A stretch of DNA of 38,515 nucleotides from a virus. The stretch lies in the IMG/VR virus record IMGVR_UViG_3300020202_000162, positions 1 to 38,515 of that record; one strand, given 5' to 3'. Shown piece by piece: positions 8,975 through 36,500 of the stretch. Both the position numbers and the translations under genes were made by a program. Under the pieces are notes generated by a model, which worked only from the letters and a program-made list of their open reading frames with translations, was not told the DNA's origin and searched no databases. Each line of letters starts with the position of its first letter. The first letter of the stretch is position 1.

Positions 8975-9265
8975 TCAGGTCTTCACTTCCTCCGGGATTG
9001 GCGGCGGCTCTGACTTGTTGGACCTCGGGGGAGAGGGAAGGGAGGGGCGACCGGCAGGGCCCCACAGCGCCGTTCTCGTGGCGTCCCGTGCTCGTGCTGC
9101 GGCGAGCTCCAGGAGTACGTCTTCCCCCTCCCCGGCAAGCTGCTGCGTCTCAACTCCCGGCGTGTCGGCGAGGCGCCGTATGGCCCGCTGGAGATACTCG
9201 TCTAGTCGCTCGATGGTCGTGCGGGGAATGCGGGATTGGTCGTCGGTAGGGCGGGGGTCAGGCAA
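8975..9265 (-). CDS. Hypothetical helical protein with TTG start
   Basis: 96 residues. TTG 9265 chosen because GGAGG lies 6 bases upstream and the start sits inside the end of the DUF5131 gene, continuing the overlap pattern. The central part is helical, with IERLDEYLQRAIRRLAD and an Ala/Arg-rich helix. The C-terminus is Pro-rich. No family is recognised. It is the last gene of the right-hand minus operon. Upstream extension of this frame is antisense-like and not supported. Confidence 0.5.
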   Translation of the reverse strand: MPDPRPTDDQSRIPRTTIERLDEYLQRAIRRLADTPGVETQQLAGEGEDVLLELAAARARDATRTALWGPAGRPSLPSPPRSNKSEPPPIPEEVKT

Positions 9266-10244
9266 GGGACACCTCCGGCATTTCGCGGACTCGTAGGTCT
9301 TCCGGCCATTCGGCAGGATCGCCACCCTTCCGATCCTTGAGACGGATGGACCACATCCCCTGTAGGTCTTCTTTCTTCGTTCCCCACGGCCACATCTCCC
9401 CAGAAACCGCGCACCCATCCCAAACAGGCCCAGCGCCGAGCTGCTTGCCGAAGAACGCCACGCCTGCCGCTGCACACTGTTTGCGAATAGAGCGCATCCA
9501 GGAGATGTCCATCGGCCGAGCGCTGGGGCCGCTCTCGGCGCCGCAGATAACCCAGGAGATTCCGGAGAGATCGACTGCCCCCAGATCCTCGAGCAGCGGC
9601 TCTGCGGATACAAAGCGGACAGCAGCCGGCACCCCCCGAAGATGCCCAACGCGTTCGCCCCACTCCTGACGCCTCTCCGCCGAGACACCGAGCCAGACAT
9701 TCCTAAGGGGCCATGGCTGAATGGCAGCACGGTCTGTCTCCTCGGCGCCCATCCCCTGGGTTCGGGCATACCAAGCCACGGAGGCGCTCGGCTGCTCTTC
9801 GCCGATTTGCCAGTACTTTTTCCCGTCACTTCCGAGCCACGCAAACCAGCTCGGCAACCGCTCCGCCCGCTTCGTCAGAACTTGATGTGTGTGCTGCGGC
9901 GTCGCCGCCATCACGCCGAAGCATGCAGCAATATGCTCGTTCGGCACCCACGAACCGAACATATCCGTCATGTCACACCAGAAGTAGGTCGTCGGCGTCC
10001 GCCGGCGCAGTACCTCCTTAAGCTTCGAGACATCTAGGAAAGGCTCGACGAGCTCCCGCCCGCGCCCGTGTACGCCGCCGAATGGAGGAAGGCCGCGACG
10101 TGACTGAAAGCGGGAGCTATAGCAAAATGTGCATCCGCTCGATACCTTCTCGCAGAAGTGCCCAACCTTCGAGGGGTCGGACTTCAGGCGGGCGCGCAGA
10201 GGGTTGATGGTGTGGCCGGTCCATTCGATCGACGTGGCTCCCAT
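9258..10244 (-). CDS. DUF5131 family protein (phage Gp37/Gp68-like)
   Basis: 328 residues from ATG 10244, ATGA-coupled to the upstream gene. It opens with SIEWTGHTINP and has Cys31, Cys38 and Cys41 in the pattern CxxxxxxCxxC. It continues with TYFWCDMTDMFG, HTHQVLTKRAERLP and VSAEPLLEDLGAVDLSGISWVICGAESG. These are hallmark segments of DUF5131, a widespread phage and prophage family with a radical-SAM-like three-Cys cluster and unknown reaction. Length fits the family (about 230-350). Some members sit beside three-Cys-motif partner genes, but none is seen here. An RNA or base modification role is sometimes suggested but unproven. Confidence 0.88.
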   Translation of the reverse strand: MGATSIEWTGHTINPLRARLKSDPSKVGHFCEKVSSGCTFCYSSRFQSRRGLPPFGGVHGRGRELVEPFLDVSKLKEVLRRRTPTTYFWCDMTDMFGSWVPNEHIAACFGVMAATPQHTHQVLTKRAERLPSWFAWLGSDGKKYWQIGEEQPSASVAWYARTQGMGAEETDRAAIQPWPLRNVWLGVSAERRQEWGERVGHLRGVPAAVRFVSAEPLLEDLGAVDLSGISWVICGAESGPSARPMDISWMRSIRKQCAAAGVAFFGKQLGAGPVWDGCAVSGEMWPWGTKKEDLQGMWSIRLKDRKGGDPAEWPEDLRVREMPEVSLA

Positions 10245-10546
10245 CAATGCACCTTCTCTTCGGTGGTCTGGCAGTTGAGCAGAGCCGTCAGCGCCGGCCA
10301 CACCCGATCGATCTCGCCGCGGGACCGCAGCAGCAAGAGCGACTGAATGACCGCCGCGAGCTCCGCCTCGCCGTCTCGAGCGGCTGCCGCCCGAGCCAGA
10401 CCCAGCGCCTCGCCCGCGTCGATTTCGACGAGATTGTCCCAGTCGGGTGGGATGGTCTCGCGAGACGGATCATCCGGCTCGGCTCCAGCGCGCCAAGCAG
10501 CCACTGCTGCGGCGGCAATTCTTCGAGCACACTCTGAAATGCTCAT
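10244..10546 (-). CDS. Hypothetical helical early protein
   Basis: 100 residues with AGGAG upstream of ATG 10546. The N-terminus (SISECARRIAAAAVAAWRAG) and C-terminus (Leu/Ala-rich, IDRVWPALTALL) are helical, separated by an acidic loop. It resembles small phage proteins of unknown function located near recombination genes. It lies between the RusA gene (9-base gap) and DUF5131 (overlap). Confidence 0.6.
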   Translation of the reverse strand: MSISECARRIAAAAVAAWRAGAEPDDPSRETIPPDWDNLVEIDAGEALGLARAAAARDGEAELAAVIQSLLLLRSRGEIDRVWPALTALLNCQTTEEKVH

Positions 10547-16814: not shown

Positions 16815-17882
16815 ATGTCGAAAATCCAGGATCTCACAGCTGCTCTCGGCGAGGCGTGGGTCGAAAACACCCGTCGCGTCAAGGGCTGGAAGCCCCGGCA
16901 GGGGCCGCGCGACTACCTCACAGCCTCCAACCTTTCGGAGTGCGGGCGAGCCATGGCGCTCGATCTCCTGCACCCCGAGGACAACCCTCCCTTCGACGAC
17001 GACACCCTGGAGCGGTTCTACCGCGGAGACGACGCCGAGACCGCGAAGAACGCCCGCCTTCACCAGGTAGGCATGCTCTGCAGGCCACCATTCAAGGTTC
17101 ACGGGCAGCAGCGCGAAGTCGAGATCTTTGCCCGAGACGGCAAAACTCTTCTCATCCGCGGTAAAGTCGAGGGCACCCTGGAGTTCTATACGGAGCGACT
17201 GGAGATCGACTACGAGATCAAATCCGGCCAAGCGGTCGCGCACGTCGAGACTTTAGACGACATGCTTCGAGGGTACTGGACACGCAAATACGTCCGCCAG
17301 TTTGTCTCCTACCTCTACGCTCAGGTGCGCGGCGGCCGCGGCTCCGGCCTAGGCGTCTTCATCCTCGACCGGCCGGGCCTGCCGGTGCTCATTCCTCTCG
17401 ATCTTGCGGAGGACGGTCGGCTCCTGGAGCTCGCCGAGAGGACTCTCACCGCAGCGGAATGGGCGGTCGAGGCTCGCTTCGACGCTCGCGAGCTGCCGCC
17501 CTTTGCCACCGACCAGGGTCTCTGCCGACGCTGCGTCCATCTCGGGAAGAGTTGCCACCCTCCGATCGACTTCGGCCCTGGGGCTCACATCGACGATGAC
17601 CCCGTGGCGGCGGCCATGGTGGCGGAGTATCTCGAGACGAAGGAGCCCTCGACGCGCCACGAGCGGGCAAAGCGCTTCCTCTTCGGCGACGCGAAAAAAC
17701 CAGGCCGGTACCGCAGCCATCCGCTTGCCCTGGTGGCCGGAGAGTACATCGTCGAGGGAGAGTGGGGCCCTTACACCCGCTACGAGATCCCTGAAGAGAT
17801 CAAGGAGAAGCACAAGGTAGTCGACCCGAAAGGCCAGTGGAAGACGACGGTGACGAAGCTCGCGAGCACGGCGAAGGACTGA
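16815..17882 (+). CDS. PD-(D/E)XK exonuclease with Cas4/AddB-like Cys cluster
   Basis: 355 residues. The nuclease core is readable: GKVEG at 116-120, EIKSG with E134 and K136, and QxxxY at Q162-Y166. Cys43 (SECGRAM) and the trio Cys237, Cys240, Cys247 (CRRCVHLGKSC) match the four-Cys 4Fe-4S arrangement of Cas4, AddB and related RecB-family nucleases. In Cas4-type enzymes the cluster supports DNA binding and 5'-3' resection. Here it probably resects ends for the annealing protein encoded just upstream. No CRISPR adaptation genes (cas1, cas2) are seen, so a Cas4 role in spacer acquisition is unlikely. Confidence 0.8.
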   Translation: MSKIQDLTAALGEAWVENTRRVKGWKPRQGPRDYLTASNLSECGRAMALDLLHPEDNPPFDDDTLERFYRGDDAETAKNARLHQVGMLCRPPFKVHGQQREVEIFARDGKTLLIRGKVEGTLEFYTERLEIDYEIKSGQAVAHVETLDDMLRGYWTRKYVRQFVSYLYAQVRGGRGSGLGVFILDRPGLPVLIPLDLAEDGRLLELAERTLTAAEWAVEARFDARELPPFATDQGLCRRCVHLGKSCHPPIDFGPGAHIDDDPVAAAMVAEYLETKEPSTRHERAKRFLFGDAKKPGRYRSHPLALVAGEYIVEGEWGPYTRYEIPEEIKEKHKVVDPKGQWKTTVTKLASTAKD

Positions 17883-19465: not shown

Positions 19466-20087
19466 TGTGCCAGAGATCGCGCTGAACCGGGGGTGGACTG
19501 ATGACCAGCAGCAGGACTACGCTCACCGCTACCAAACTCAGGAGAGGCGCATGGAGAGTGCGGGAGTGCCCCCCCGATACCTCAGGTACACTTGGCAGAC
19601 CTGGCCGCGCAAGAAGCGGCAGGATCTCCTCGACTGGCCCAGCAAACCGGGGCCGGAGGGGCGGATCCCGTGGACGGTCTTCGCGTACGGGCCCAAGGGT
19701 TCCGGCAAGACGCACATCACTACCGCCGTGCTTGCTGATTTGCTCTGCCGGGGATGGACCTGCAAGTGGTTCGAAGTTGCGGAGGCGATCGAGGAGGTCA
19801 AGGCGGAGTTCGCCGACGAAGTCTACCAGGGCAGGACCATGAAAGCGCTCAAGGAGACTCCCATAATCCTGCTCGACGACTTGGGGGCCGAGCGTCTCAC
19901 CGATTTCGCGGCCGACACAGTGGCGCAGGTCCTGAGGTATCGTTACAACCGGGAGAAGTTCACCTTGGTCACTACGAACATGGAACTTGAGGAGCTGGAC
20001 TCGATTGACTCCCGCCTCGGGTCCCGGCTCGGCGGACGGGAGGCCCTCCAGATCAACTTTGCAGGACAACGGGACTGGCGCCTATGA
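19329..20087 (+). CDS. DnaC-like helicase loader ATPase
   Basis: 252 residues. ATG 19329 chosen because GGAGG lies 5 bases upstream; ATG 19440 is an alternative that would reduce overlap with the previous gene. The AAA+ core shows Walker A GPKGSGKT (121-128), Walker B IILLDDLG (179-186), a sensor-1 segment LVTTNMELEEL, and an Arg-finger-like SRLGSRLGG near the end. This is the DnaC/IstB-like order. Such proteins load the replicative helicase onto DNA opened by the initiator, which is encoded just upstream. No phage helicase is seen, so it probably recruits host DnaB. Confidence 0.85.
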   Translation: MVNSRLDALLQRLEAQLLPTPSDLPSSELDLKPPSGWMMTIRRRLDVPEIALNRGWTDDQQQDYAHRYQTQERRMESAGVPPRYLRYTWQTWPRKKRQDLLDWPSKPGPEGRIPWTVFAYGPKGSGKTHITTAVLADLLCRGWTCKWFEVAEAIEEVKAEFADEVYQGRTMKALKETPIILLDDLGAERLTDFAADTVAQVLRYRYNREKFTLVTTNMELEELDSIDSRLGSRLGGREALQINFAGQRDWRL

Positions 20088-21127
20088 ACGCTCCAGGCGG
20101 AGCAGGGGAGTCTGTGGTGAACTCCCAGGGCGCACATGGCGGCGCCATTACCTCAAGGGCAGAGATGAAAGCGACCCCACTCTTCCCCTGGTTTGGCTCC
20201 AAAAAGGACGTGGCGCGGGAGATCTGGGACCGGCTCGGGGATGTGCCCAACTTCGTAGACCCGTGCTGCGGATCTTGCGCAGTACCGCTCCTCCGCCCGC
20301 ATCCCGCGAAGACCATGACGTTGAACGATGCGGATGGCTTTCTGGTGAACTTCTTTCGGGCTGTGTCGATAGATCCGGAAAGCGTCGCGCATGAGGCAGA
20401 CTGGCCGGTGTCGGAGCTTGATCTCACCGCTCGGCATGCCTACCTCGTGAAGCGCATCCCGTGGCTGGTGGAGCGGCTCGAAGGAGATCCGTGGTGGTAT
20501 GACGCCCGCCTAGCCGGATGGTGGCTGTGGGGGCTTTGTGAGTGGATCGGGACCGGCTGGTGCACCGGTGATGGGCCGTGGGCGGAGGTGGGCGGGCGGA
20601 TCGTAAACATCAGGGAAGGGGAGCACCTCGGGGATGCCGGCCGCGGCATCAACCGCAAGATACCGCACCTCAGCACTGCCGGATCTGGAATCAACAGGGC
20701 GATAGACACGCGCAGGACTCTTGAAGCGGCGCGCGACCAGATTCGCGGAGCCCGGATTACGTGCGGTGATTGGCGGCGTCCGCTCTCTCCCGCCGTCACT
20801 TGGCGCCATGGGCCGACGGGGATTCTTCTTGATCCGCCATACCTGAGAGGCGAGATGTCATACGCGGGCGGCGGCGCAATCGCCGAAGATTGCGCCGCTT
20901 GGGCACGCGAGAACGGGGATAATCCTCTCCTTCGCGTCGCTCTCTGCGGCCACGAGGGGGACTATGATCTCCCGGGATGGGACGTGTTCCGTTGGAAGGG
21001 GCGGGGCGGATACGGCAACACAGGCGGCGAGGATGCCGAAGACAACCGCCACCGAGAGACGATCTGGTTCAGTCCTCACTGCCTGGGGAGTCGGCAGCCG
21101 AGCCTCTTCCCGAGAAGTTGTCGATGA
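20084..21127 (+). CDS. D12-class (Dam-like) N6-adenine DNA methyltransferase
   Basis: 347 residues from ATG 20084, overlapping the loader stop. FPWFGSKK (34-41) and FVDPCCGS (57-64) are the SAM-binding motif region, and DPPY (250-253) is the catalytic motif. The order fits D12-type (Dam/M.EcoRV) methylases that transfer methyl from SAM to adenine. A stretch with repeated ADxGRGINRKIP-like sequence lies in the middle. No partner endonuclease is seen. With Lar and the second methylase at 28880 it likely shields phage DNA from host restriction. The recognition sequence cannot be read from the protein. Confidence 0.88.
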   Translation: MNAPGGAGESVVNSQGAHGGAITSRAEMKATPLFPWFGSKKDVAREIWDRLGDVPNFVDPCCGSCAVPLLRPHPAKTMTLNDADGFLVNFFRAVSIDPESVAHEADWPVSELDLTARHAYLVKRIPWLVERLEGDPWWYDARLAGWWLWGLCEWIGTGWCTGDGPWAEVGGRIVNIREGEHLGDAGRGINRKIPHLSTAGSGINRAIDTRRTLEAARDQIRGARITCGDWRRPLSPAVTWRHGPTGILLDPPYLRGEMSYAGGGAIAEDCAAWARENGDNPLLRVALCGHEGDYDLPGWDVFRWKGRGGYGNTGGEDAEDNRHRETIWFSPHCLGSRQPSLFPRSCR

Positions 21128-28174: not shown

Positions 28175-28650
28175 TGCGCATCCGTCCGATTACCCGAAAC
28201 GCAGCGATGGCCTTCCTGGCGGAGAACCACCGTCACCTCCGCCGAGCCCTGGCAGGCTGGCTTTTTGGCGTTGCACTGGTGGACGACGCAGGGGAGATTC
28301 AGGGTATTGGTTGCGCCGCACGACCATCTGCGCGGCTGCTCCAGGACGGACTGACCATCGAGATCGCCCGCGTCTGCACCAACGGTGTGCCGAACGGATG
28401 CAGCCAGATCTACGGAGCGCTTCGGCAGGCTGCTCGAGCGCTCGGCTACCAGCGGGTGGTGACCTACACGCGTGAAGACGAGCCGGGGACGTCGCTCCGT
28501 GCGGCCGGATTCGTCTGCGATGGACCGGCCGGGGGTGGCGAATGCAGCCGGCCGAGCCGGCCGCGCAGGCCCTCGGAAGACCCATCACCGAAGGTTCGAT
28601 GGAGCTGGTCGAGCAGCTCCGCGGAGCCCCGCCCGTGGACTCCCGCCTGA
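28174..28650 (+). CDS. XF1762-family phage protein (acetyltransferase-like)
   Basis: 158 residues from ATG 28174. RPITRNAAMAFLAENHRHLRRALAG, GVALVDDAGEIQGIGCAARP, EIARVCTNGVPNGCSQIYGALRQAARALGY, then VVTYTREDEPGTSLRAAGF match the standard order of the XF1762 family. These are short GNAT-like proteins common in phages, with unproven activity. The last 30 residues are Ser/Pro-rich and overlap the next gene, so the functional domain probably ends near residue 128. Confidence 0.75.
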   Translation: MRIRPITRNAAMAFLAENHRHLRRALAGWLFGVALVDDAGEIQGIGCAARPSARLLQDGLTIEIARVCTNGVPNGCSQIYGALRQAARALGYQRVVTYTREDEPGTSLRAAGFVCDGPAGGGECSRPSRPRRPSEDPSPKVRWSWSSSSAEPRPWTPA

Positions 28651-28883
28651 TCCCCGCGTTCCTCGCCGCCGGCTGGTTCCTGGTGACCCTGGGGCTCTGG
28701 GGCGGGTGCGGTCGGCCCTGGTGGGTCTGGCCGATGTCGGTGGGGCTCGGGCTCCTGGTGGTCGGTGGGGCGTACGGGTGGGCAGCGGTGACTCTGACCG
28801 CAGCGGGGAAGGTGGGCGAGGAGACGGAGCACCCCAGCAGGATTCCGGAACCAGGGGCTGGGCCGCGGAGGGTCGGGGGGTGA
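28542..28883 (+). CDS. Two-TM membrane protein
   Basis: 113 residues from ATG 28542, overlapping the previous gene by 109 bases. Hydrophobic segments at about residues 36-53 and 61-82 contain many Trp and Gly (GCGRPWWVWPMSVGLGL). Charged, Pro-rich C-terminal tail. No known family; a membrane-located accessory protein. Confidence 0.55.
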   Translation: MQPAEPAAQALGRPITEGSMELVEQLRGAPPVDSRLIPAFLAAGWFLVTLGLWGGCGRPWWVWPMSVGLGLLVVGGAYGWAAVTLTAAGKVGEETEHPSRIPEPGAGPRRVGG

Positions 28884-29398
28884 GCGAAGCCGCTCGCGTC
28901 TTAAAGTTCGCCACCAAGGCCACCGATGTCTGGCGGACGCCCCCTACGCTATGGGGTCCGCTCAACAACGAGTTTCACTTCGTCCTCGACGCCGCCTGCG
29001 AGAGCCACAACCAACTCGCGCCGCACGGTCTTTGCGCTGATCGCGGAGACGACGCGCTTCTGATGCCCTGGCACACCTACGGCGGAGCGGTATGGTGCAA
29101 TCCGCCATACTCGCGGATTCGCCCCTGGATGGAGCAGGGCATTCGAGCGGGACGGGTGGTTCCGGTCGTCATGCTCATCCCGGCGGACACGTCTACCCGC
29201 TGGTGGTTCGAATGCGTCGCGCATCTGGCCGCGGAGGTGCGCTTTTTGGTCGGACGGGTACGCTTCCGGGGAGTAGACGGGGAACCTTATCAGCGAAGGA
29301 CCGGAGGAGGAAGCGGACTGAGCACGCCGAGCGCCCTGGTCATCTACCGGCCTTCGGGTGGCCCACCCCGGTATTCCTACGTCGAGACGCCCCGTTGA
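28880..29398 (+). CDS. dam: Phage N6-adenine DNA methyltransferase (Dam, phage type)
   Basis: 172 residues from GTG 28880 (GTGA overlap). WRTPPTLWGPLNNEFHFVLD contains the SAM-binding region, and GDDALLMPW is followed by CNPPYSR with the catalytic NPPY at 74-77. This compact order is that of phage-type DNA adenine methylases of about 160-180 residues (PF05869-like). It is a different family from the D12 methylase at 20084. Protection from restriction is the likely role. It directly precedes the portal gene and overlaps its start. Confidence 0.85.
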   Translation: MSEAARVLKFATKATDVWRTPPTLWGPLNNEFHFVLDAACESHNQLAPHGLCADRGDDALLMPWHTYGGAVWCNPPYSRIRPWMEQGIRAGRVVPVVMLIPADTSTRWWFECVAHLAAEVRFLVGRVRFRGVDGEPYQRRTGGGSGLSTPSALVIYRPSGGPPRYSYVETPR

Positions 29399-30816
29399 AA
29401 GTCTCTCTTACCGCAGCCCTGGCCTCCGCAGCCGGGGACATCCAGAAGCGGGCGAGCGCCACCCCTTCCCGCGAGATCCTCTCTCCAGCGCAGTTCGGCG
29501 GCTCCGGCTACAGCTACGGCGGTGGGCAGGCAGTCCAGACCGACTGGGACGAGAGGCGGGCGATCCAGGACGGATACCGATCGAGCACCTGGCCGTTCGC
29601 CTGCATGGACCGGCTTCAGGGCGCGGGCAGCTCTGTCCCCTGGGTGGTCTACGAGCGTCGTGGCCGACGCCGGCGGGAATGGGAGCGGCAGGACGGGCAC
29701 GATTACGAGGTCTGCATTGAGTACCCGATGCCCGGCCTGCTTTCCCGCCAGACTCTGATCTCGGGCATGATTCTCTCCCTCTGCTGCGGGGGCAACTCCC
29801 TCTCTCGAGTGATCTATGTCCGGCGTGGCGGCGAGGAGGTCCCTGTCGAGCTCCAGCCGATGTCGACCGCACTGTGGCGACCGGTGCCCGTCGGCGACTT
29901 TGACAGGCCGGAGCTCGTGACGAACCGGGAAGGTCGGCAGCAGTGGGCGAAGTGGATCAAGGGCTACAAGCGGACGGACCGGAGCGATCCACCCATCGAG
30001 CCCTGGCGGGTTGTTCACGCGCAGAAGCTCGACCCGGGCGTCTGGATCTGGGGCATGAGCCCCATGCGGCCAATTGCTCCCATCGTGGATATGGACCGAG
30101 CCATGGTCGCCTGGAACGCCCGCATGCCGCAGCAGAACATGGTGCCCGCCGGCGCCTTCATCGACTCCAGAGTTAGCACCAACGAACAGGCCAGAGAAAA
30201 GGCTATAGCGCTCCGCACCCGCCTGAACGACCCTTCGTTGTCCGGGGCCCCCTTCGTCTTCGGTCCGGGCACGACGTGGCTGCCCATGGGGCACACCATG
30301 GTCGAGGCAGACTGGAACGCGAGTCGCGAATTCAACCGCGACGAGGTCTGCGCCGCCTTCAATATCTCTCCGACGCTCTTCATCAGCGATGCGAAGTACG
30401 CCAACATGGAGCAGGGTCGAGCGCACCTCCTGGAGAACGGGGCACGAGACTTGCTTGAGCTCCTCCAAGACGCGTTCAACACCGCCTTGGTGCCGGACAG
30501 CCGCCGGCGGGAGGTGTACATCGCCTACGACCTGTCGGACGTCCCCGGTGTGCGTGACACCCTTCCAGCGCGTCTCGAGAGTCACGAGAGGGCAGTGCGC
30601 AGCGGCATCCCAGTGAACAGCTCGATCTATCTCCACGGCCTAGATGTGCAGCCGGTCGAAGGCGGCGATCAGCCGTTGGTCCCAGCCACGCTGGTACCCC
30701 TCCGGCACCTCATCGAGGAGCCTGCGGCGTCCCCTGCGGACGATGGGGAGGATGACGGTTCACTTCCCGTCCCATCGTCGGGATTGACAAAGGAGCCCGA
30801 ACAGACAGACGATTAG
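29395..30816 (+). CDS. HK97-type portal protein
   Basis: 473 residues from TTG 29395, which overlaps the methylase stop. The sequence has portal features: WPFACMDRLQGAGSSVPWVVYER (clip/stem entry), LSLCCGGNSLSRVIY, EPWRVVHAQKLDPGVWIWGMSPM, and a central helical region with EFNRDEVCAAFNISPTLF. A C-terminal acidic tail ends in TDD. Length fits the family (about 400-500). The portal forms the dodecameric ring through which DNA is packaged by the terminase at 21.1-23.9 kb. It is separated from TerL by 5.5 kb of accessory genes. Confidence 0.85.
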   Translation: MKVSLTAALASAAGDIQKRASATPSREILSPAQFGGSGYSYGGGQAVQTDWDERRAIQDGYRSSTWPFACMDRLQGAGSSVPWVVYERRGRRRREWERQDGHDYEVCIEYPMPGLLSRQTLISGMILSLCCGGNSLSRVIYVRRGGEEVPVELQPMSTALWRPVPVGDFDRPELVTNREGRQQWAKWIKGYKRTDRSDPPIEPWRVVHAQKLDPGVWIWGMSPMRPIAPIVDMDRAMVAWNARMPQQNMVPAGAFIDSRVSTNEQAREKAIALRTRLNDPSLSGAPFVFGPGTTWLPMGHTMVEADWNASREFNRDEVCAAFNISPTLFISDAKYANMEQGRAHLLENGARDLLELLQDAFNTALVPDSRRREVYIAYDLSDVPGVRDTLPARLESHERAVRSGIPVNSSIYLHGLDVQPVEGGDQPLVPATLVPLRHLIEEPAASPADDGEDDGSLPVPSSGLTKEPEQTDD

Positions 30817-30820
30817 AGCC

Positions 30821-31873
30821 GTGAGCAGGCAAACCACGGCTCGAAGCGCGATGATCGCAGCTTGGCGACTGGTGACCCGCGGGCTGGCCGTACCCGCCGG
30901 CGCTTGCGAGTGCGCTCTGTGCGGAGGCAGCCCGCACCCCGCCGCCAAGAAAGTCGTTGAATTCCTGCCTGCGCACTTCCCGCACCCCGACCTGATCGAC
31001 CCTACGAGAGCGATGGTTTGCGCCGGATGCGTAGCGATCTTCGGAGGCAAGCCCAGCAAGATCACTCCGCCGTTCCGCACGCGCCACGTGGCGGTAATGG
31101 CGGACGGTACCCTGCGCACTCACGAGAGAGTCCGAGAACTTTATCAATATCTCTCTGCGCCCGAAAGCGTGGCGCTTCTAAGTTGGGCAGTCTCTCTCAA
31201 GAAACACCACCTCGTGCATGCGCGTGCAGCGGTGCCAGGGCGCCTCTTCGTTGGGAGCGACAACGGCACGCTCGAATACGGCGCCGCTGAAAGTGCCCTC
31301 CTGCCCATCGTCGCTGAACTGTTGGCAGGCTTTGGACTGGACACGATCATCGAAGGGACCTACTCCTCCCATCAAATCCAAGCATTCGGAGCGTCGCGGT
31401 GGGCCGCCCTGGAGAGTCGGATCGAAGATCTCCGTCGGCGCTCGCCGTCAATGTTGTCTTTAATCGTCTATTCCACACCGAAACAGGAGCGGCTTGCGGG
31501 TCGCGCGGTAAGGACAGACCCACGCGCGGAAAGGACAGACCCAATGAACGCGGAAGACTCGGCTGCGGCATTCCTCCTTGGCGAGATCGCCCACGCAAGT
31601 GCCAAGAGACGGGAGGATGGCCTTCAGTTCTGGGGCGGCTTCTTCCTTCACCGCCTGAACCGGTTTCGCCGCCTTGACCTCGATAGCTTGGTTTCTCGTC
31701 TCATGGCAGAATGCGCTGTCGCTCCGCACCAAGCCGAGAGCGTGACCTCAATCCTCCGTGAGATCGAGAAAGAGGGGATGACGGCCGCCGTTTCCGAGGC
31801 CATCCGCCAGCGACCGGCGCTTCTCGCCGCTCTGGCTTACGACCACATCCAAGGAAAGAGGGTGGCGAAGTGA
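30821..31873 (+). CDS. csf1: Csf1-like type IV CRISPR protein with C-terminal Cas11-like extension
   Basis: 350 residues from GTG 30821, 4 bases after the portal stop. The N-terminus has a zinc-finger pair: C31-x2-C34 and C67-x2-C70, with EFLPAHFPHPDLIDP between. This is the Csf1 (type IV large-subunit) arrangement. Typical Csf1 is about 220-250 residues. The extra 110 residues after RTDPRAERTDP are fully helical (FLLGEIAHASAKRREDGL, RFRRLDLDSLVSRLM). They resemble Cas11 small subunits, which in type IV-B are usually a separate gene between csf1 and csf2. Csf2-like and Csf3-like genes follow directly. The assignment is strong by motif and context, but the homology is distant. Confidence 0.75.
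   Translation: MSRQTTARSAMIAAWRLVTRGLAVPAGACECALCGGSPHPAAKKVVEFLPAHFPHPDLIDPTRAMVCAGCVAIFGGKPSKITPPFRTRHVAVMADGTLRTHERVRELYQYLSAPESVALLSWAVSLKKHHLVHARAAVPGRLFVGSDNGTLEYGAAESALLPIVAELLAGFGLDTIIEGTYSSHQIQAFGASRWAALESRIEDLRRRSPSMLSLIVYSTPKQERLAGRAVRTDPRAERTDPMNAEDSAAAFLLGEIAHASAKRREDGLQFWGGFFLHRLNRFRRLDLDSLVSRLMAECAVAPHQAESVTSILREIEKEGMTAAVSEAIRQRPALLAALAYDHIQGKRVAK
31510..31543. repeat. 13-bp direct repeat before the internal start of the Cas11-like region
   Basis: AAGGACAGACCCA at 31510-31522 and again at 31531-31543, 21 bp apart and in frame, giving the duplicated RTDP linker. The second copy ends immediately before ATG 31544, and its AAGGA is positioned as a ribosome-binding site. Confidence 0.85.
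31544..31873 (+). CDS. cas11: Possible internally translated Cas11-like small subunit
   Basis: In-frame ATG 31544 inside csf1 with AAGGA at 31531-31535, 8 bases upstream, gives 109 residues. The product is entirely helical, the right size for Cas11 (about 100-150 residues). Internal translation of a small subunit from a large-subunit gene is known in several type I systems. Whether it happens here, or the domain works only as a fusion, cannot be decided from the sequence. Confidence 0.35.
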   Translation: MNAEDSAAAFLLGEIAHASAKRREDGLQFWGGFFLHRLNRFRRLDLDSLVSRLMAECAVAPHQAESVTSILREIEKEGMTAAVSEAIRQRPALLAALAYDHIQGKRVAK

Positions 31874-32643
31874 AACCGACGACGATCAAGCTCCGGTTGG
31901 AAGCGCTCTCGCCAATAGTCCACGGCGACATTGGGAGCGGCAAGATCGGAAACGCGATGGCTTTCAGGCGCATGGAAATTCGAGGAGTACCTACGCCCGT
32001 GATCTCCGGCAACGCTCTCGGCGGCATGCTTCGAAGGATCATCTGGCGCGCTGCGTTTGACCGCTTTGGGATCGATCGCACCAACATGGAGACGAAGCAG
32101 TGGGATCGGCTCTATGGCTCGCTTGCGAACGGCGGACACCTAGAAAAGTCGGAAGTGGCGACCGATCCAAACAGGCAGCGTGAACTGCGCCAGATTCTGC
32201 CGCCTCTTTCCGCCCTTGGCGCGGCCCTCTATTCCTTCATGATGGCGGGAAACGCGAGCTTTCCGTTCCTGTTTCCTGAGACCGACCTTGACCCTGAACT
32301 GCTGATCGAAGAGGTCAGCCTCGCGCGCCACGTGGACCGCGGCGAGCAGGACCCCGAGCAGTCTGGCGTGACTCCGATGCCCGTCACGATCGAAACCATC
32401 AAGACGGGGACGGTGTTCTCTGGCGAGATCCTATGGCTCGCGAGACCGCACTCCCCCGCAGAGGTAGGCTGCGTGGTATGGGCACTCGATAGGCTCGCCC
32501 ATATCGGAGGAAAGGGACACGTCGGATTCGGCCGCGTTCGCGCTGAGCACGACGGTGACCAGGCCACCGCGGCGGCATTCGAGGAGTGGCTCGCGGACCA
32601 GACCGTCCCCGCCTTCTTGCGGGCGCTGGCGGCCGAGCTGTGA
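31870..32643 (+). CDS. csf2: Csf2-like RAMP (Cas7-family backbone subunit)
   Basis: 257 residues from GTG 31870 (GTGA overlap). It begins with a beta strand and LSPIVHGDIGSG (14-24), then VISGNALGGMLRRIIW (44-59), the hallmark of Csf2/Cas7 proteins (SGNSIRGxLRR). A Gly-rich loop, IGGKGHVGFGRV, lies at 212-223. Cas7-family subunits wrap a guide or scaffold RNA in a helical filament. Tight overlaps with csf1 and csf3 imply stoichiometric production. Family assignment is strong by motifs; type IV membership comes from the neighbours. Confidence 0.75.
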   Translation: MKPTTIKLRLEALSPIVHGDIGSGKIGNAMAFRRMEIRGVPTPVISGNALGGMLRRIIWRAAFDRFGIDRTNMETKQWDRLYGSLANGGHLEKSEVATDPNRQRELRQILPPLSALGAALYSFMMAGNASFPFLFPETDLDPELLIEEVSLARHVDRGEQDPEQSGVTPMPVTIETIKTGTVFSGEILWLARPHSPAEVGCVVWALDRLAHIGGKGHVGFGRVRAEHDGDQATAAAFEEWLADQTVPAFLRALAAEL

Positions 32644-33377
32644 AACTACTGCGGGTTCGCTGCGAGCTTGCAACGCCAGCCATCGTGGACGCCGGTCCCG
32701 TCCACCTTGACGGCATTCTCTGGGCCGCTTCGGCGGAGCACAGGGAAGCCTTTCGCGTCGAGGTGCCACGCCTCCCGGTTTGGAGCGTCACCCTCTTCGG
32801 CGAGACGGTGGCACTGGCGTCCGCGCTGCTCCCCGGGCACTACCGGCACCAGCAAGTCTCTCTGGTAAAACGTCGGGACGGCATCGATGTCCAGCATCTG
32901 GGGGGTCGGCTCCATCGTGGGCTCGGTCCAGGCAAGGACAAGCTGCGCTACGCGCTGGCGATCGACGGAACCCTGGAATGGGTCGTAGTAGCGGGCCGTC
33001 GCCGGCCGGTACTGAAAATGCTCCGCCGCGTCCTCGCGCTTGGTCGCGACCTCCGGAGCGGACACGGAAGGGTCAGAGAGTGGGATGTGCTGGAGGACCC
33101 GGAGGAGGATTTGGCGTCTGTACTGGTCAGCCCGGACAGTGTGTCGCGCCGCAATCTTCCTCCGCGCTGGTGCTCCTCGTCTTCCGCCGTGAGCCGCGGA
33201 GCGCTCCGTCCGCCATACTGGAATCAGCACGTCGATATCGTGCCGGCCGGTGCTGTCGTGCGGCTAGATCCGGCAGTGCTTTACGAGGTGCGGAAAGGAG
33301 TTGAGATTGCCCCAAGGCCTCGACCTGCGGACATACGCCGCGCTCTGCGGGACGCGCCGATTCAGACGGAAGATTGA
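32640..33377 (+). CDS. csf3: Csf3-like RAMP (Cas5-family subunit)
   Basis: 245 residues from GTG 32640 (GTGA overlap). N-terminal RAMP strand with LATPAIVDAGPVHLDGILWAA (10-30), which matches the ATPxxL...PxHLDGILA pattern of Csf3. A conserved Gly-rich loop, LGRDLRSGHGRV, lies at 134-145. Cas5/Csf3 caps the end of the Cas7 filament and contacts the RNA 5' handle. No catalytic residues are visible, as expected of Csf3. The CysH-like gene begins 71 bases before its end. Confidence 0.7.
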   Translation: MKLLRVRCELATPAIVDAGPVHLDGILWAASAEHREAFRVEVPRLPVWSVTLFGETVALASALLPGHYRHQQVSLVKRRDGIDVQHLGGRLHRGLGPGKDKLRYALAIDGTLEWVVVAGRRRPVLKMLRRVLALGRDLRSGHGRVREWDVLEDPEEDLASVLVSPDSVSRRNLPPRWCSSSSAVSRGALRPPYWNQHVDIVPAGAVVRLDPAVLYEVRKGVEIAPRPRPADIRRALRDAPIQTED

Positions 33378-34047
33378 TCTCGCGCGACAGTGCGTAGAGT
33401 CTTGGCTCGCTCAGTGCGCACGACCGGCGGTGAGCTGCGGAGGAGGCAAAGACTCGACAGCTCTTCTCCAACTGGTTCACGCCGTCGAGCCATCCGTACC
33501 GGTCTACTGCGCAGATCCGCCCAACCCGTTGCCGGATCGTGCTCCTCATCTCCGCCGCCTGGAGATGGCCGACGGATCGTCATTTTGCCGCGTTCCATAC
33601 CCGTGGGACGTCGAGGCCGTGCTGAACGGCAGGGAGGCCTACCCGGCACTCCTGAAGATCCGCCGACTAGAGGAGCGCCTCGCGTTGGACGAGGTCGATG
33701 GCGTGGCGCTCGGAATCCGGGCGGAGGAGAGTTATGGGCGCTGCATGAACTTCCGTGTCCGCGGGCCTCTCTACCTCCATTCTTCGGGCAGGTGGGTCTG
33801 CACACCGATTGCGTCATGGACCGCGGAGGAGGTCGTCGGCTTCGTGCTCGCGCATGACTGCCTTCCGCTTAATCCCGTATACTTCAAGCTGGAACTAGCG
33901 CCGGCGCTCAATCACCTGAGGGATGGCACCTGGTTTCCCCGCGAGATAGCTGATGGTCAGGGTTACGAGGATTGGTTGCGCTTCCATTACCCCGAACTGG
34001 GCGAGTTGTACCGAAGAGCTGCCAACTTGACACCTCGACGCGCATAG
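33307..34047 (+). CDS. cysH: CysH-like PP-loop (PAPS reductase family) protein of the csf cassette
   Basis: 246 residues from TTG 33307; AAGGAG lies 6 bases upstream. PP-loop SCGGGKDS at 43-50, followed by VDGVALGIRAEESYGRC and a second motif block, PIASWTAEEVVGFVL, and LNPVYFKLEL. PAPS reductases and related sulfurtransferases use this ATP-pyrophosphatase motif to activate substrates. A CysH-like gene is the recognised accessory of type IV-B CRISPR-Cas loci, with unknown reaction. It overlaps csf3 by 71 bases, so it is expressed with it. Sulfate assimilation is unlikely, since no other such gene is present. Confidence 0.75.
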   Translation: MPQGLDLRTYAALCGTRRFRRKIDLARQCVESWLAQCARPAVSCGGGKDSTALLQLVHAVEPSVPVYCADPPNPLPDRAPHLRRLEMADGSSFCRVPYPWDVEAVLNGREAYPALLKIRRLEERLALDEVDGVALGIRAEESYGRCMNFRVRGPLYLHSSGRWVCTPIASWTAEEVVGFVLAHDCLPLNPVYFKLELAPALNHLRDGTWFPREIADGQGYEDWLRFHYPELGELYRRAANLTPRRA

Positions 34048-34064: not shown

Positions 34065-34865
34065 ATGCCCCGCTTCGTCCCGATCGAGGTCAAGCTCTCC
34101 GCTGACGCCGTCAGCGTCTCAAAACGCGAGGTGACATTCTACGGCAACGCGTTCAACAACCGCGACCGCCAAGGGCACCGAATCCTCCCTGGCGCATGGA
34201 CCAAGACCATAGCGCAGCAGCTCCCCAAGGGGGAGATCAAGCACTTCCGGAACCACGAAGTCAGCATTGGCCCAATGCGCGAGCTGGTACAAGACTCCTA
34301 CGGCCTCCTGTGCACGGGGTACTGCTCGAAGACCCGGGCCGGCGACGAGTACCTGGAGCAGGCGCTGGACGGCACCCTGACACACGCCTCCGTCTATGCC
34401 AAGATCGTTCGCGAGCGCGCAGAGTACGTCACCGAGGACGATCCCGTGACCGGACAGAAGGTGGAGACGCTCAACATCGGGGAGGCCATCCTGCTTGAGG
34501 CCGGTCTTGTCGACCTCGCCCCAGCCAACAATCTCGCGACCCTGGTGGCGGTGAAGAACCTCGCCGGGTCAGACTTCTACGACCTTCTCACTGATCTCGA
34601 CTACATCGTGAAGGACTTCGCCCTCTCGTGCAGCACCGATAGACGGCTGACTGCGGAGGAAAGGCGAGTAGCGAAAGCTCTGCTCGGGCTCCGCAAGGTG
34701 CTCGATGACCAGGGCGATATCCTCAAGGCACTGCTGGCGCCGGGAGACGTCACCCAGACCTCCGGGTCTGCGCCGAGTCTAGCCACCCCCGCACATGCCG
34801 AGACGCAGCCCGACCTGACCGCCATCCTGGAGAGCATCCGGGGGCGTGGTCAGATCCACCTGTAA
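34065..34865 (+). CDS. HK97-type prohead protease
   Basis: 266 residues from ATG 34065. Starts with VPIEVKLSADAVSVSKREVTF and has the FRNHEVSIGPM histidine (H64) and THASVYAKI with Ser109, typical of the prohead protease active site. A long acidic, low-complexity tail follows residue 190. The protease trims the capsid scaffold during maturation. Family length is usually about 200-280. It is the normal neighbour of portal and capsid, separated from the portal by the csf cassette. Confidence 0.85.
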   Translation: MPRFVPIEVKLSADAVSVSKREVTFYGNAFNNRDRQGHRILPGAWTKTIAQQLPKGEIKHFRNHEVSIGPMRELVQDSYGLLCTGYCSKTRAGDEYLEQALDGTLTHASVYAKIVRERAEYVTEDDPVTGQKVETLNIGEAILLEAGLVDLAPANNLATLVAVKNLAGSDFYDLLTDLDYIVKDFALSCSTDRRLTAEERRVAKALLGLRKVLDDQGDILKALLAPGDVTQTSGSAPSLATPAHAETQPDLTAILESIRGRGQIHL

Positions 34866-34901: not shown

Positions 34902-36500
34902 ATGCCCACCGTCGAAGAGATCCAGACGGAAATCGTCAAATCCAACGCCGCGGTCAACGAGACGCTCAAGGCGATCAAGACCCAGCTCGACAACCACGAG
35001 GCCGCCATCGCCGAGATGAAGAAGAATGGTGACCGGCCGGAGGCGACCGCCGAGCACGCCGAGACCATGAAGAAGCTCACCGCCACGCTGGATGGAGCGC
35101 AGACCTCTTTGGCTGCTGCACAGGCCGAGCTTGTGGCCCTCAAGGCGTCAACCCAGCACGACATCGAGGAGCTGCAAAAGGCGATGCAGCGGAGCGGCAA
35201 TGGTGGCGCGGGCGGCGAGGCGTTCAAGACCCTCGGAGAACGAGCCGTCGAGCTGATCCAGGAGAACGAGGCCGCCTTCCGTGACTACGCCAATGGTAGG
35301 GCCCCAAATGCGCGTTTGCTGCCTCACGTGACCTTGAAGTCCTTCGGCGACGAGCCGATCTTCCGCGGATACGAACCGAGTGACCTGAAGAAAGCTCTTC
35401 AGACGAACGCCACGACCAATTTCATCGCTCCCTACCAGATCCCCGGATACATCCCGCTCCGCCGGCGCCGTCTCCGGATGCGGGATCTTATCCCCATCAT
35501 TCCGGCGCCCGGCGGCGGCGAGATCCGCTATGTCCGGCAGACCGGCTTCGCTCCGACTGCTGCGCCCTCGTCGGTCGTCAGCATCACCCAAACCGGAGGC
35601 CTTGCGACCGCAACCGTTACCGGCCACGGGTGGGAGGATCACGACCGCATCCGAATCGCTGGCGCGAACCAAGCTGGTTATAACGGCGATTTCTACATCA
35701 AGGTGGTGGACGCCAATACGTTCACCTTCACGGTCCCGTCGGGAACGGTGAGTCCGGCCACCGGAACCATCACCGCCTTCCGGATGAACAACTATGGTGC
35801 TGCCGGTTGGGTGGCCGAGGGCGCGACGAAACCCGGCGCCCAGATGTTCTTCGAAGAGCGGACGGCGCGGGTGCAGACGCTCGCCCACCACATGAAGGTC
35901 ACTCGGCAGGTGCTCGCCGACATGCCGGGGCTCCAGAACAACATCAACACCGACGGCATTTACGGCCTCCTACGGGCCGAGGATACCGGGATCCTGTATG
36001 GTTCTGGCACCGGCGCCGAGATGCAGGGCATCCTCACAGACCCGGGCCGGCAGCAGTACAAGTGGAGCGAGGGGAAGACGAACGACACGAAAGTGAAAGC
36101 GATCCGCCGGTCGCGGACCTTGGTCGAGATGGCGGACGGCGAAGCCTCGGGCTGCGTCCTTCACCCCACCGTGTGGGAGGACATCGAGCTCGAAACCGGG
36201 AGCGACGAGCATTACATCTGGGTGAACCGGATGAACGGCCTCAACCCGGACGGTGAGGAGATCTGGCGGATGCCGCTCGTGCTCACCCGCGCGATCAAGG
36301 CGGAGACCTGGCTGGTGGGGGCCTTCGCTCAGGCGACCTCGCTCTACGACCGGGAGCAAGCCAATGTTCGCTGGAGCGATTCGAACGAGGACGACTTCAT
36401 CAAGAACTTGATGACGGCACTCTTCGAGGAGCGGATCGCCCAAGCCATCCGCCACCCAGAGCTGCTGGTCGAGGGAACCTTCGACAGTGCCCCGGCCTAG
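34902..36500 (+). CDS. HK97-type major capsid protein with inserted Ig/FCCH-like domain
   Basis: 532 residues from ATG 34902. Residues 1-98 form a delta-type coiled-coil scaffold, likely cleaved by the protease upstream. The HK97 fold follows: LPHVTLKSFGDEPIFRG, KALQTNATTNFIAPYQIPGYIPL, then WVAEGATKPGAQM, TRQVLADMPGL and RAEDTGILYGSGTGAEMQGIL. Residues about 224-293 are an insertion with VSITQTGGLATATVTGHGW, IAGANQAGYNGDFYIKVVD and NTFTFTVPSGT. It resembles FCCH/Ig-like modules of phage surface proteins. It lies near the E-loop region and probably decorates the capsid surface. The family is typically 300-420 residues long. Confidence 0.88.
   Translation: MPTVEEIQTEIVKSNAAVNETLKAIKTQLDNHEAAIAEMKKNGDRPEATAEHAETMKKLTATLDGAQTSLAAAQAELVALKASTQHDIEELQKAMQRSGNGGAGGEAFKTLGERAVELIQENEAAFRDYANGRAPNARLLPHVTLKSFGDEPIFRGYEPSDLKKALQTNATTNFIAPYQIPGYIPLRRRRLRMRDLIPIIPAPGGGEIRYVRQTGFAPTAAPSSVVSITQTGGLATATVTGHGWEDHDRIRIAGANQAGYNGDFYIKVVDANTFTFTVPSGTVSPATGTITAFRMNNYGAAGWVAEGATKPGAQMFFEERTARVQTLAHHMKVTRQVLADMPGLQNNINTDGIYGLLRAEDTGILYGSGTGAEMQGILTDPGRQQYKWSEGKTNDTKVKAIRRSRTLVEMADGEASGCVLHPTVWEDIELETGSDEHYIWVNRMNGLNPDGEEIWRMPLVLTRAIKAETWLVGAFAQATSLYDREQANVRWSDSNEDDFIKNLMTALFEERIAQAIRHPELLVEGTFDSAPA

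Follow-up and report, generated by a model that had tools for sequence, protein, structure and literature searches.

A likely phage-borne variant of the type IV-B Csf operon with Cas11 in the C-terminus of Csf1 and a proposed internal start

Type IV-B CRISPR-Cas systems carry a separate cas11 gene (PMC7937560, PMC8175902), as in the megaplasmid-borne locus of Mycobacterium sp. JS623 (PDB 7jhy), which comprises csf1, csf2, csf3, Cas11 and a CysH-like partner and in which no array, Cas6 or nuclease was found. Reviews also record type IV systems in the genomes of lytic phages and in prophages, and one archaeal virus with a IV-B locus (PMC10848311, PMC11656645). Here we describe a csf1-csf2-csf3-cysH operon at positions 30821-34047 of a viral record of 38,515 nucleotides (IMG/VR record IMGVR_UViG_3300020202_000162), the whole of which we call the window; the 38.5-kb record is linear and has no end repeats, so that it may be partial. 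The operon shares the components of the JS623 locus, and there too no array, Cas6 or nuclease was found, but its Csf2 is divergent from that of JS623, its Cas11 is the C-terminus of Csf1 rather than the product of a separate gene, and it lies in the head operon of a tailed phage. We consider it likely that this phage carries a distinct variant of the type IV-B Csf operon, with cas11 in the C-terminus of Csf1 and, as we propose, an internal start. Among virus-borne systems, Skermania phage SPI1 (orf40-44, our locus L002) has csf1-(cas11)-csf2-csf3-cysH, the gene order of the window, and the Fuxivirus IV-B of Bathyarchaeia viruses likewise encodes Csf1, Csf2, Csf3 and CysH but belongs to an archaeal virus and has a mini CRISPR array and five genes, including all typical type IV components (PMC10848311).

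A preliminary description of this DNA had read the four genes as csf1, csf2, csf3 and cysH. The open reading frames (ORFs) and the quoted motifs were all located: cysteine pairs in Csf1, which are kept in the fused relatives described below and could bind zinc; SGNALGGMLRR and IGGKGHVGFGRV in Csf2; SGHGRV in Csf3; and SCGGGKDS in CysH. Hidden Markov model (HMM) searches gave matches far beyond chance for all four products. Residues 12-223 of Csf1 matched PADLOC typeIV_Cas8 (E = 7.7e-10), Csf2 and Csf3 matched the corresponding PADLOC Cas7 and Cas5 models (Table 1), and the CysH-like protein matched Pfam PAPS_reduct (PF01507, 3.2e-8), passing the family cut-off. In NCBIfam the matches of csf2 (4.9e-6) and csf3 (2e-11) fell short of the strict NCBI cut-offs because the proteins are divergent. 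The Csf3 family profile matched the solved type IV-A Csf3 (4e-23), and PDB entries 11fs, 11hc and 11hd, named Cas7c and Cas5c, matched Csf2 (5e-5) and Csf3 (5.9e-7). The CysH of the window retains the family-invariant G, K, S, E-S-x-x-R, Y and R and shares its gene context and motifs with the CysH of other IV-B loci. Compared with the PDB, the CysH family profile matched PAPS reductases, a sulfate adenylyltransferase, an FAD synthase and a Cap9 protein. PAPS reductases use a cysteine in their C-terminal tail; the tail of this CysH contains none.

No CRISPR array, Cas6, DinG, adaptation genes or nuclease were found in the record, whose larger ORFs were scanned and which is possibly incomplete; the preliminary description gives the lack of Cas6 and arrays as a trait of IV-B loci in general. 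A CRISPR or mini-array in the window was considered and rejected, there being no suitable repeats; repeat matches turned up in three other viral loci (L025, L031 and L034), those of L034 being of low complexity. Because of the profile matches, the gene order and the kinship of Csf2, and because array, Cas6 and DinG were not found, we assign the locus as type IV-B-like, and its identification as a type IV-B effector operon is supported. It had been presented as a phage-borne relative of plasmid systems; that it is virus-borne was confirmed, but other virus-borne IV-B loci were known before (PMC10848311, PMC11656645).

The preliminary description listed cas11 among the parts of IV-B loci but did not place it in this one. 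The window cassette contains no separate cas11: csf2 follows csf1 directly, its start overlapping the csf1 stop, with no ORF in between. The 350-aa Csf1 is about 110 aa longer than the 227-position Csf1 model. An assembly or sequencing frameshift as the cause of this length was rejected, since the same in-frame fusion occurs in four other phage contigs. These came from a scan of IMG/VR viral contigs with a Csf2 alignment, which gave 23 loci, and from later scans, which added L032 and L036. Together with the window, L009, L029, L032 and L036 make up five IMG/VR phages with a fused Csf1 of 335-355 aa (342 aa in L009, 355 aa in L029, 335 aa in L036) and no cas11 between csf1 and csf2. The Csf1 of L036 is 35% identical to that of the window over 330 aa and its Csf2 47%. 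In L032 and L036 csf3 and cysH follow in the same order as in the window; the L009 and L029 contigs end within csf2. Most of the about 20 other IMG/VR viral type IV loci (L010-L031), which have the same components, keep a separate cas11, and the order csf1-cas11-csf2 is found in the reference loci of Skermania phage SPI1, Thermococcus and actinobacterial plasmids. Many of the viral loci have cysH before csf3: a second viral order, csf1-cas11-csf2-cysH-csf3, was seen in L011, L013, L015, L017, L019, L020, L023, L028 and L030, as against csf3-cysH in the window and SPI1.

Four of the fused loci (all but L029, which has too little Csf2) were placed in a Csf2 tree of 30 rows, where they grouped as a single, long-branched clade (support 100/100); nearest to them, across open forks, were Thermococcus, L010, L027 and haloarchaeal plasmids. 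The tree was built without reference rows of IV-A, IV-C, IV-D and IV-E, so the subtype placement rests on gene content. Single-protein scans of IMG/VR viral contigs with Csf2 and with the portal protein found no relatives, and L035, the sole match of the Csf1 viral scan, was discarded as spurious, being without csf genes. The fused Csf1 had no match among phages and plasmids by tblastn and none among genome contigs, the latter showing little as the peptide patterns were strict.

That the C-terminal extension is Cas11 was indicated by comparing alignments. Using hhalign, the five tails matched 24 separate Cas11s with a probability of 84% (E = 7.6e-6) in one direction and 58% (1e-4) in the other, over 91-102 columns, and with scores of 30-36, compared with at most 16.5 in 30 column-shuffled controls and 15 for the N-terminal domain of Csf1. 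The L036 tail was matched, in a search of that locus alone (2.1e-4), by a profile of seven separate Cas11s that predates the discovery of L036, and the curated PADLOC model Cas11_0_IV matched one of the five tails (0.0054). The family of separate Cas11s that we used is genuinely IV-B, its profile of 8 rows, the window tail among them, matching Csf4/Cas11 of PDB 7jhy at 8.5e-47. AlphaFold (AF2) was run on sequences of the window and the viral loci, the tail alignment including separate Cas11s. The tail from Met242 alone was modeled as all-helical, with seven helices and a mean predicted local distance difference test (pLDDT) score of 96.1, and full-length Csf1 as two confident domains with a disordered linker (residues 225-239, mostly pLDDT < 50). 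The top Foldseek matches of the full model were 7xg1_A and 8rc3_G, chains of Csf1 size in type IV-A Csf complexes (prob 0.99, E 0.02-0.04).

Other results argue against this assignment. Single-sequence HMM searches of the window tail with Cas11 models gave no match, a re-built 24-sequence Cas11 profile ranked the fused proteins only marginally above shuffled decoys, and Foldseek of the tail, a small helical bundle, found no match in the PDB, the Cas11 of 7jhy included. Since the single-sequence searches failed and the decoys were poorly separated, homology of the tail rests on profile-profile comparison, fold and position. The lack of a PDB fold match and the weak or absent single-sequence matches would also be expected if an unrelated helical domain had replaced Cas11. 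We regard such a replacement as very improbable in view of the profile-profile match with its clean controls, the PADLOC Cas11 match on one relative, the collinear position between csf1 and csf2, and the fact that exactly these loci are without a separate cas11. Several moderate lines of evidence, no single one of them strong, thus identify the Csf1 tail as Cas11.

To the start of the Cas11 domain corresponds an in-frame ATG at position 31544 with AAAGGA 8 nt upstream, and the equivalent junction ATGs of the four relatives are preceded at 6-8 nt by GAGGT, GAGGT, AGGAG and GAGG. A Shine-Dalgarno (SD) core of at least 4 nt was present at five of five junction ATGs, compared with 5 of 33 other in-frame internal ATGs (Fisher 5e-4), and one of at least 5 nt at four of the five junctions and at none of the 33 others (p 7e-5). 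Local RNA structure at the junction ATGs was weak (fractions 0.37, 0.32, 0.08, 0.10 and 0.01; combined p 0.01). A 21-bp unit that contains the SD-like AAGGA is present in two tandem copies immediately upstream of the internal ATG of the window. Where the two genes are separate, the start of cas11 often lies 4-29 nt inside csf1. The fusion may therefore have arisen by loss of the csf1 stop and in-frame joining, with the start signal of cas11 retained. From the sequence we predict that free Cas11 is also produced, by internal initiation at the SD and ATG 31544, and the junction signals support this prediction. One gene would then supply one capping Csf1-Cas11 plus many Cas11 copies for the filament. 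Types I-B, I-C and I-D have similar large-subunit genes (cas8/cas10d), which end in a small-subunit domain and contain an internal start; in these types internal in-frame Cas11 starts have been demonstrated (PMC11899642). The window differs in having a type IV large subunit and in that its internal translation is predicted.

Some observations weaken the case for internal initiation. L029 and L032 are 62% identical, so that the five fused genes amount to about four independent samples, and part of the SD is provided by a Glu codon (GAG/GAA) that is conserved in the peptide. The junction site was chosen before the SD test. By duplex energy the internal SD of the window is unremarkable, 20% of codon positions equaling it; ranking SD sites by duplex energy was less telling than counting core matches. 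If the internal ATG were unused, each Cas11 would be tethered to a Csf1 and the complex would be shorter or differently built. The continuous ORF in all five phages and the long, flexible linker are compatible with such a pure fusion, but we think it unlikely: an SD and ATG stand at the junction in all five, internal initiation is documented for the analogous type I genes, and the solved IV-B complex contains six Csf2 and five Cas11 (PMC7937560), which would be hard to reach if every Cas11 carried a Csf1.

A second arrangement was observed in a single contig, L027, whose Csf2 (L027:7374-8663) has some 165 aa of Cas11 inserted directly ahead of the VPVISGN motif. The insertion matched Cas11 at 7.7e-15 in a single-sequence search with a profile built without L027, and PADLOC typeIV_Cas11 at 1e-7. 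No separate cas11 was found in this locus, and its gene order is csf1-csf2::cas11-cysH-csf3. In the Cas7-11 effectors of subtypes III-E and III-I the small subunit is also physically joined to Cas7, but these have several fused Cas7 domains, whereas in L027 Cas11 lies inside a single Csf2. On balance we favor the view that in phage-borne type IV-B complexes Cas11 has been absorbed by other subunits by two routes. One is represented by a monophyletic group of phages whose Csf1-Cas11 gene would yield two proteins through an internal start that is conserved, as the type IV equivalent of the arrangement in I-B, I-C and I-D, and the other by the Cas11-in-Csf2 of L027, in which each backbone subunit would have its own belly subunit. 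IV-B loci of phages and other viruses were known before, and a layout like that of Csf1-Cas11 is known in other CRISPR types; for type I, fusion of the small to the large subunit is mentioned in the 2025 classification (PMC12669027). In the literature searched, that classification included, we found no report of a Csf1-Cas11 fusion or of Cas11 within Csf2; the two main type IV surveys were outside this search, and priority is not established.

What the complex does is a matter of inference. The RNA on which the purified and solved IV-B complex forms is heterogeneous but uniform in length, about 55-60 nt (PMC7937560). In the phage, Csf2 would polymerise on RNA of this length with Cas11 alongside and Csf3 and Csf1 at the ends, the complex would be made late, together with the head proteins, and CysH would act on ATP or RNA through its PP-loop. 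A role in phage competition or RNA binding, as suggested in the preliminary description, is plausible. Because no array, Cas6 or nuclease was found in the record, we propose that the complex would most likely capture small RNAs of the host or of competitors, and among the functions weighed we tentatively prefer this one, for counter-defence or competition. As a sponge, the filament would sequester host CRISPR RNAs or other guides and so blunt RNA-guided immunity, a benefit to phages; the retained CysH is left unexplained by it, and the co-transcription with head genes that we infer would be late for counter-defence. Next comes recognition of competitors or host transcripts guided by RNA without an array, in which CysH would adenylate the bound nucleic acid or modify it in another way. 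CysH keeps its PP-loop and invariant residues, it is present in most of the viral type IV loci examined, and an activity of this kind has been proposed for it (PMC8175902), but the activity has never been demonstrated and no source of guides was identified, and this second function appears less probable to us.

The cassette does lie inside a phage head module, with matches to a portal protein, a prohead protease and an HK97-type capsid protein on its flanks. It is compact, four genes in about 3.2 kb with almost no intergenic room: 4 nt separate the portal stop from the csf1 GTG start, the csf1/csf2 and csf2/csf3 junctions are GTGA start-stop overlaps, csf3 and cysH overlap by about 70 nt, and 17 nt separate cysH from the protease gene. 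A search for a promoter or terminator of its own found no more sites than in shuffled sequence, which suggests that the cassette is co-transcribed with the head genes. Searches for tRNAs and Rfam families gave no match. In Marinomonas phage P12026 the portal-protease interval contains one MuF-like gene, so this slot is able to take extra genes. The spacing of 4 and 17 nt between portal and protease, with presumed co-expression with the capsid gene, could point to a role in virion assembly or packaging. Such a role is highly doubtful, since the fused relatives carry the cassette elsewhere, by replication and recombination genes: in L009 it adjoins primase/helicase and ligase genes, in L032 exonuclease VIII, RecT, RusA and DnaB-like genes, and in L029 it is downstream of a RusA-like gene, as read from the sequence of that contig. 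In L036 it is in an undefined region between minus-strand genes. The expectation that related phages would have the same cassette between portal and protease was thus not borne out for the fused relatives with readable surroundings; the head-module placement is particular to the window phage. In L032 the cassette also adjoins an ORF (L032:11998-12582) that consists nearly entirely of YGYG/SG repeats.

Table 1. Features of the cassette and its neighbors in the window.
Feature	Position	Strand	Remarks
Portal protein	29332..30816	+	Upstream neighbor; PF04860 1.2e-32; PHROG portal 2.1e-32; ORF opens at 29092
csf1-cas11 fusion gene	30821..31873	+	350 aa; GTG start; alternative ATG 30851 possible
Csf1 large-subunit domain	30821..31493	+	Cys pairs C31/C34, C67/C70
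Tandem 21-bp unit, two copies	31502..31543	+	Copies 95% alike; encodes disordered linker; AAGGA core in each
Shine-Dalgarno-like AAAGGA	31530..31535	+	8 nt upstream of internal ATG 31544
Cas11 small-subunit domain, Met242-Lys350	31544..31873	+	Proposed second protein of 109 aa from internal ATG 31544
csf2, Cas7-like backbone	31870..32643	+	GTG start; PADLOC typeIV_Cas7 3.8e-31; PDB 7jhy Csf2 2.2e-6
csf3, Cas5-like	32640..33377	+	GTG start; PADLOC typeIV_Cas5 1.1e-21; listed ORF opens at 32586
CysH-like PP-loop ATPase gene	33307..34047	+	TTG 33307 with AAGGAG 6 nt upstream; or TTG 33301
Prohead protease	34065..34865	+	Downstream neighbor; PF04586 2.4e-4; PHROG head maturation protease 7.8e-12
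HK97-type major capsid protein	34902..36500	+	PF05065 6.6e-33

Several other genes were observed in the window and its relatives. The window has two adenine methyltransferase-like genes, one at 20084-21127 (PF02086, 1.8e-7) and one at 28472-29398, immediately upstream of the portal gene (PF05869 Dam, 2.5e-27). It also encodes a 355-aa protein (16815-17882) that by appearance is a RecB/Cas4-type nuclease with C-terminal cysteines and had no library match, and, on the minus strand (9258-10301), a DUF5131 protein (1.1e-62) that also matches the PADLOC candidate defence families PDC-M41B and PDC-M30B. L032 carries a C5 cytosine methyltransferase gene (L032:5322-7547) whose catalytic SPPC/QPF motif is the site of an intein-like Hint insertion, the matches of the insertion to PF14890 (1.4e-8) and PF13403 (5.5e-6) being slightly short of the cut-offs. 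At six consecutive gene boundaries of L009 (L009:3300-5100) a G+C-rich palindrome lies across the stop codon (e.g., ggcggggttataaccccgcc), followed by ggaggac and atg, as a result of which several small proteins end in -AGL.

Type IV-B systems, which have no array and no nuclease, are among the least understood CRISPR derivatives, notably as regards the guide and the role of CysH. The compact phage version, with Cas11 within csf1, is a small system suited to reconstitution and to infection assays. Pipelines that expect a separate cas11 will label such loci incomplete. If the internal start indeed makes free Cas11, type IV and type I would share one solution to subunit stoichiometry, and Cas11 inside Csf2 would add an architecture for comparison with Cas7-11.

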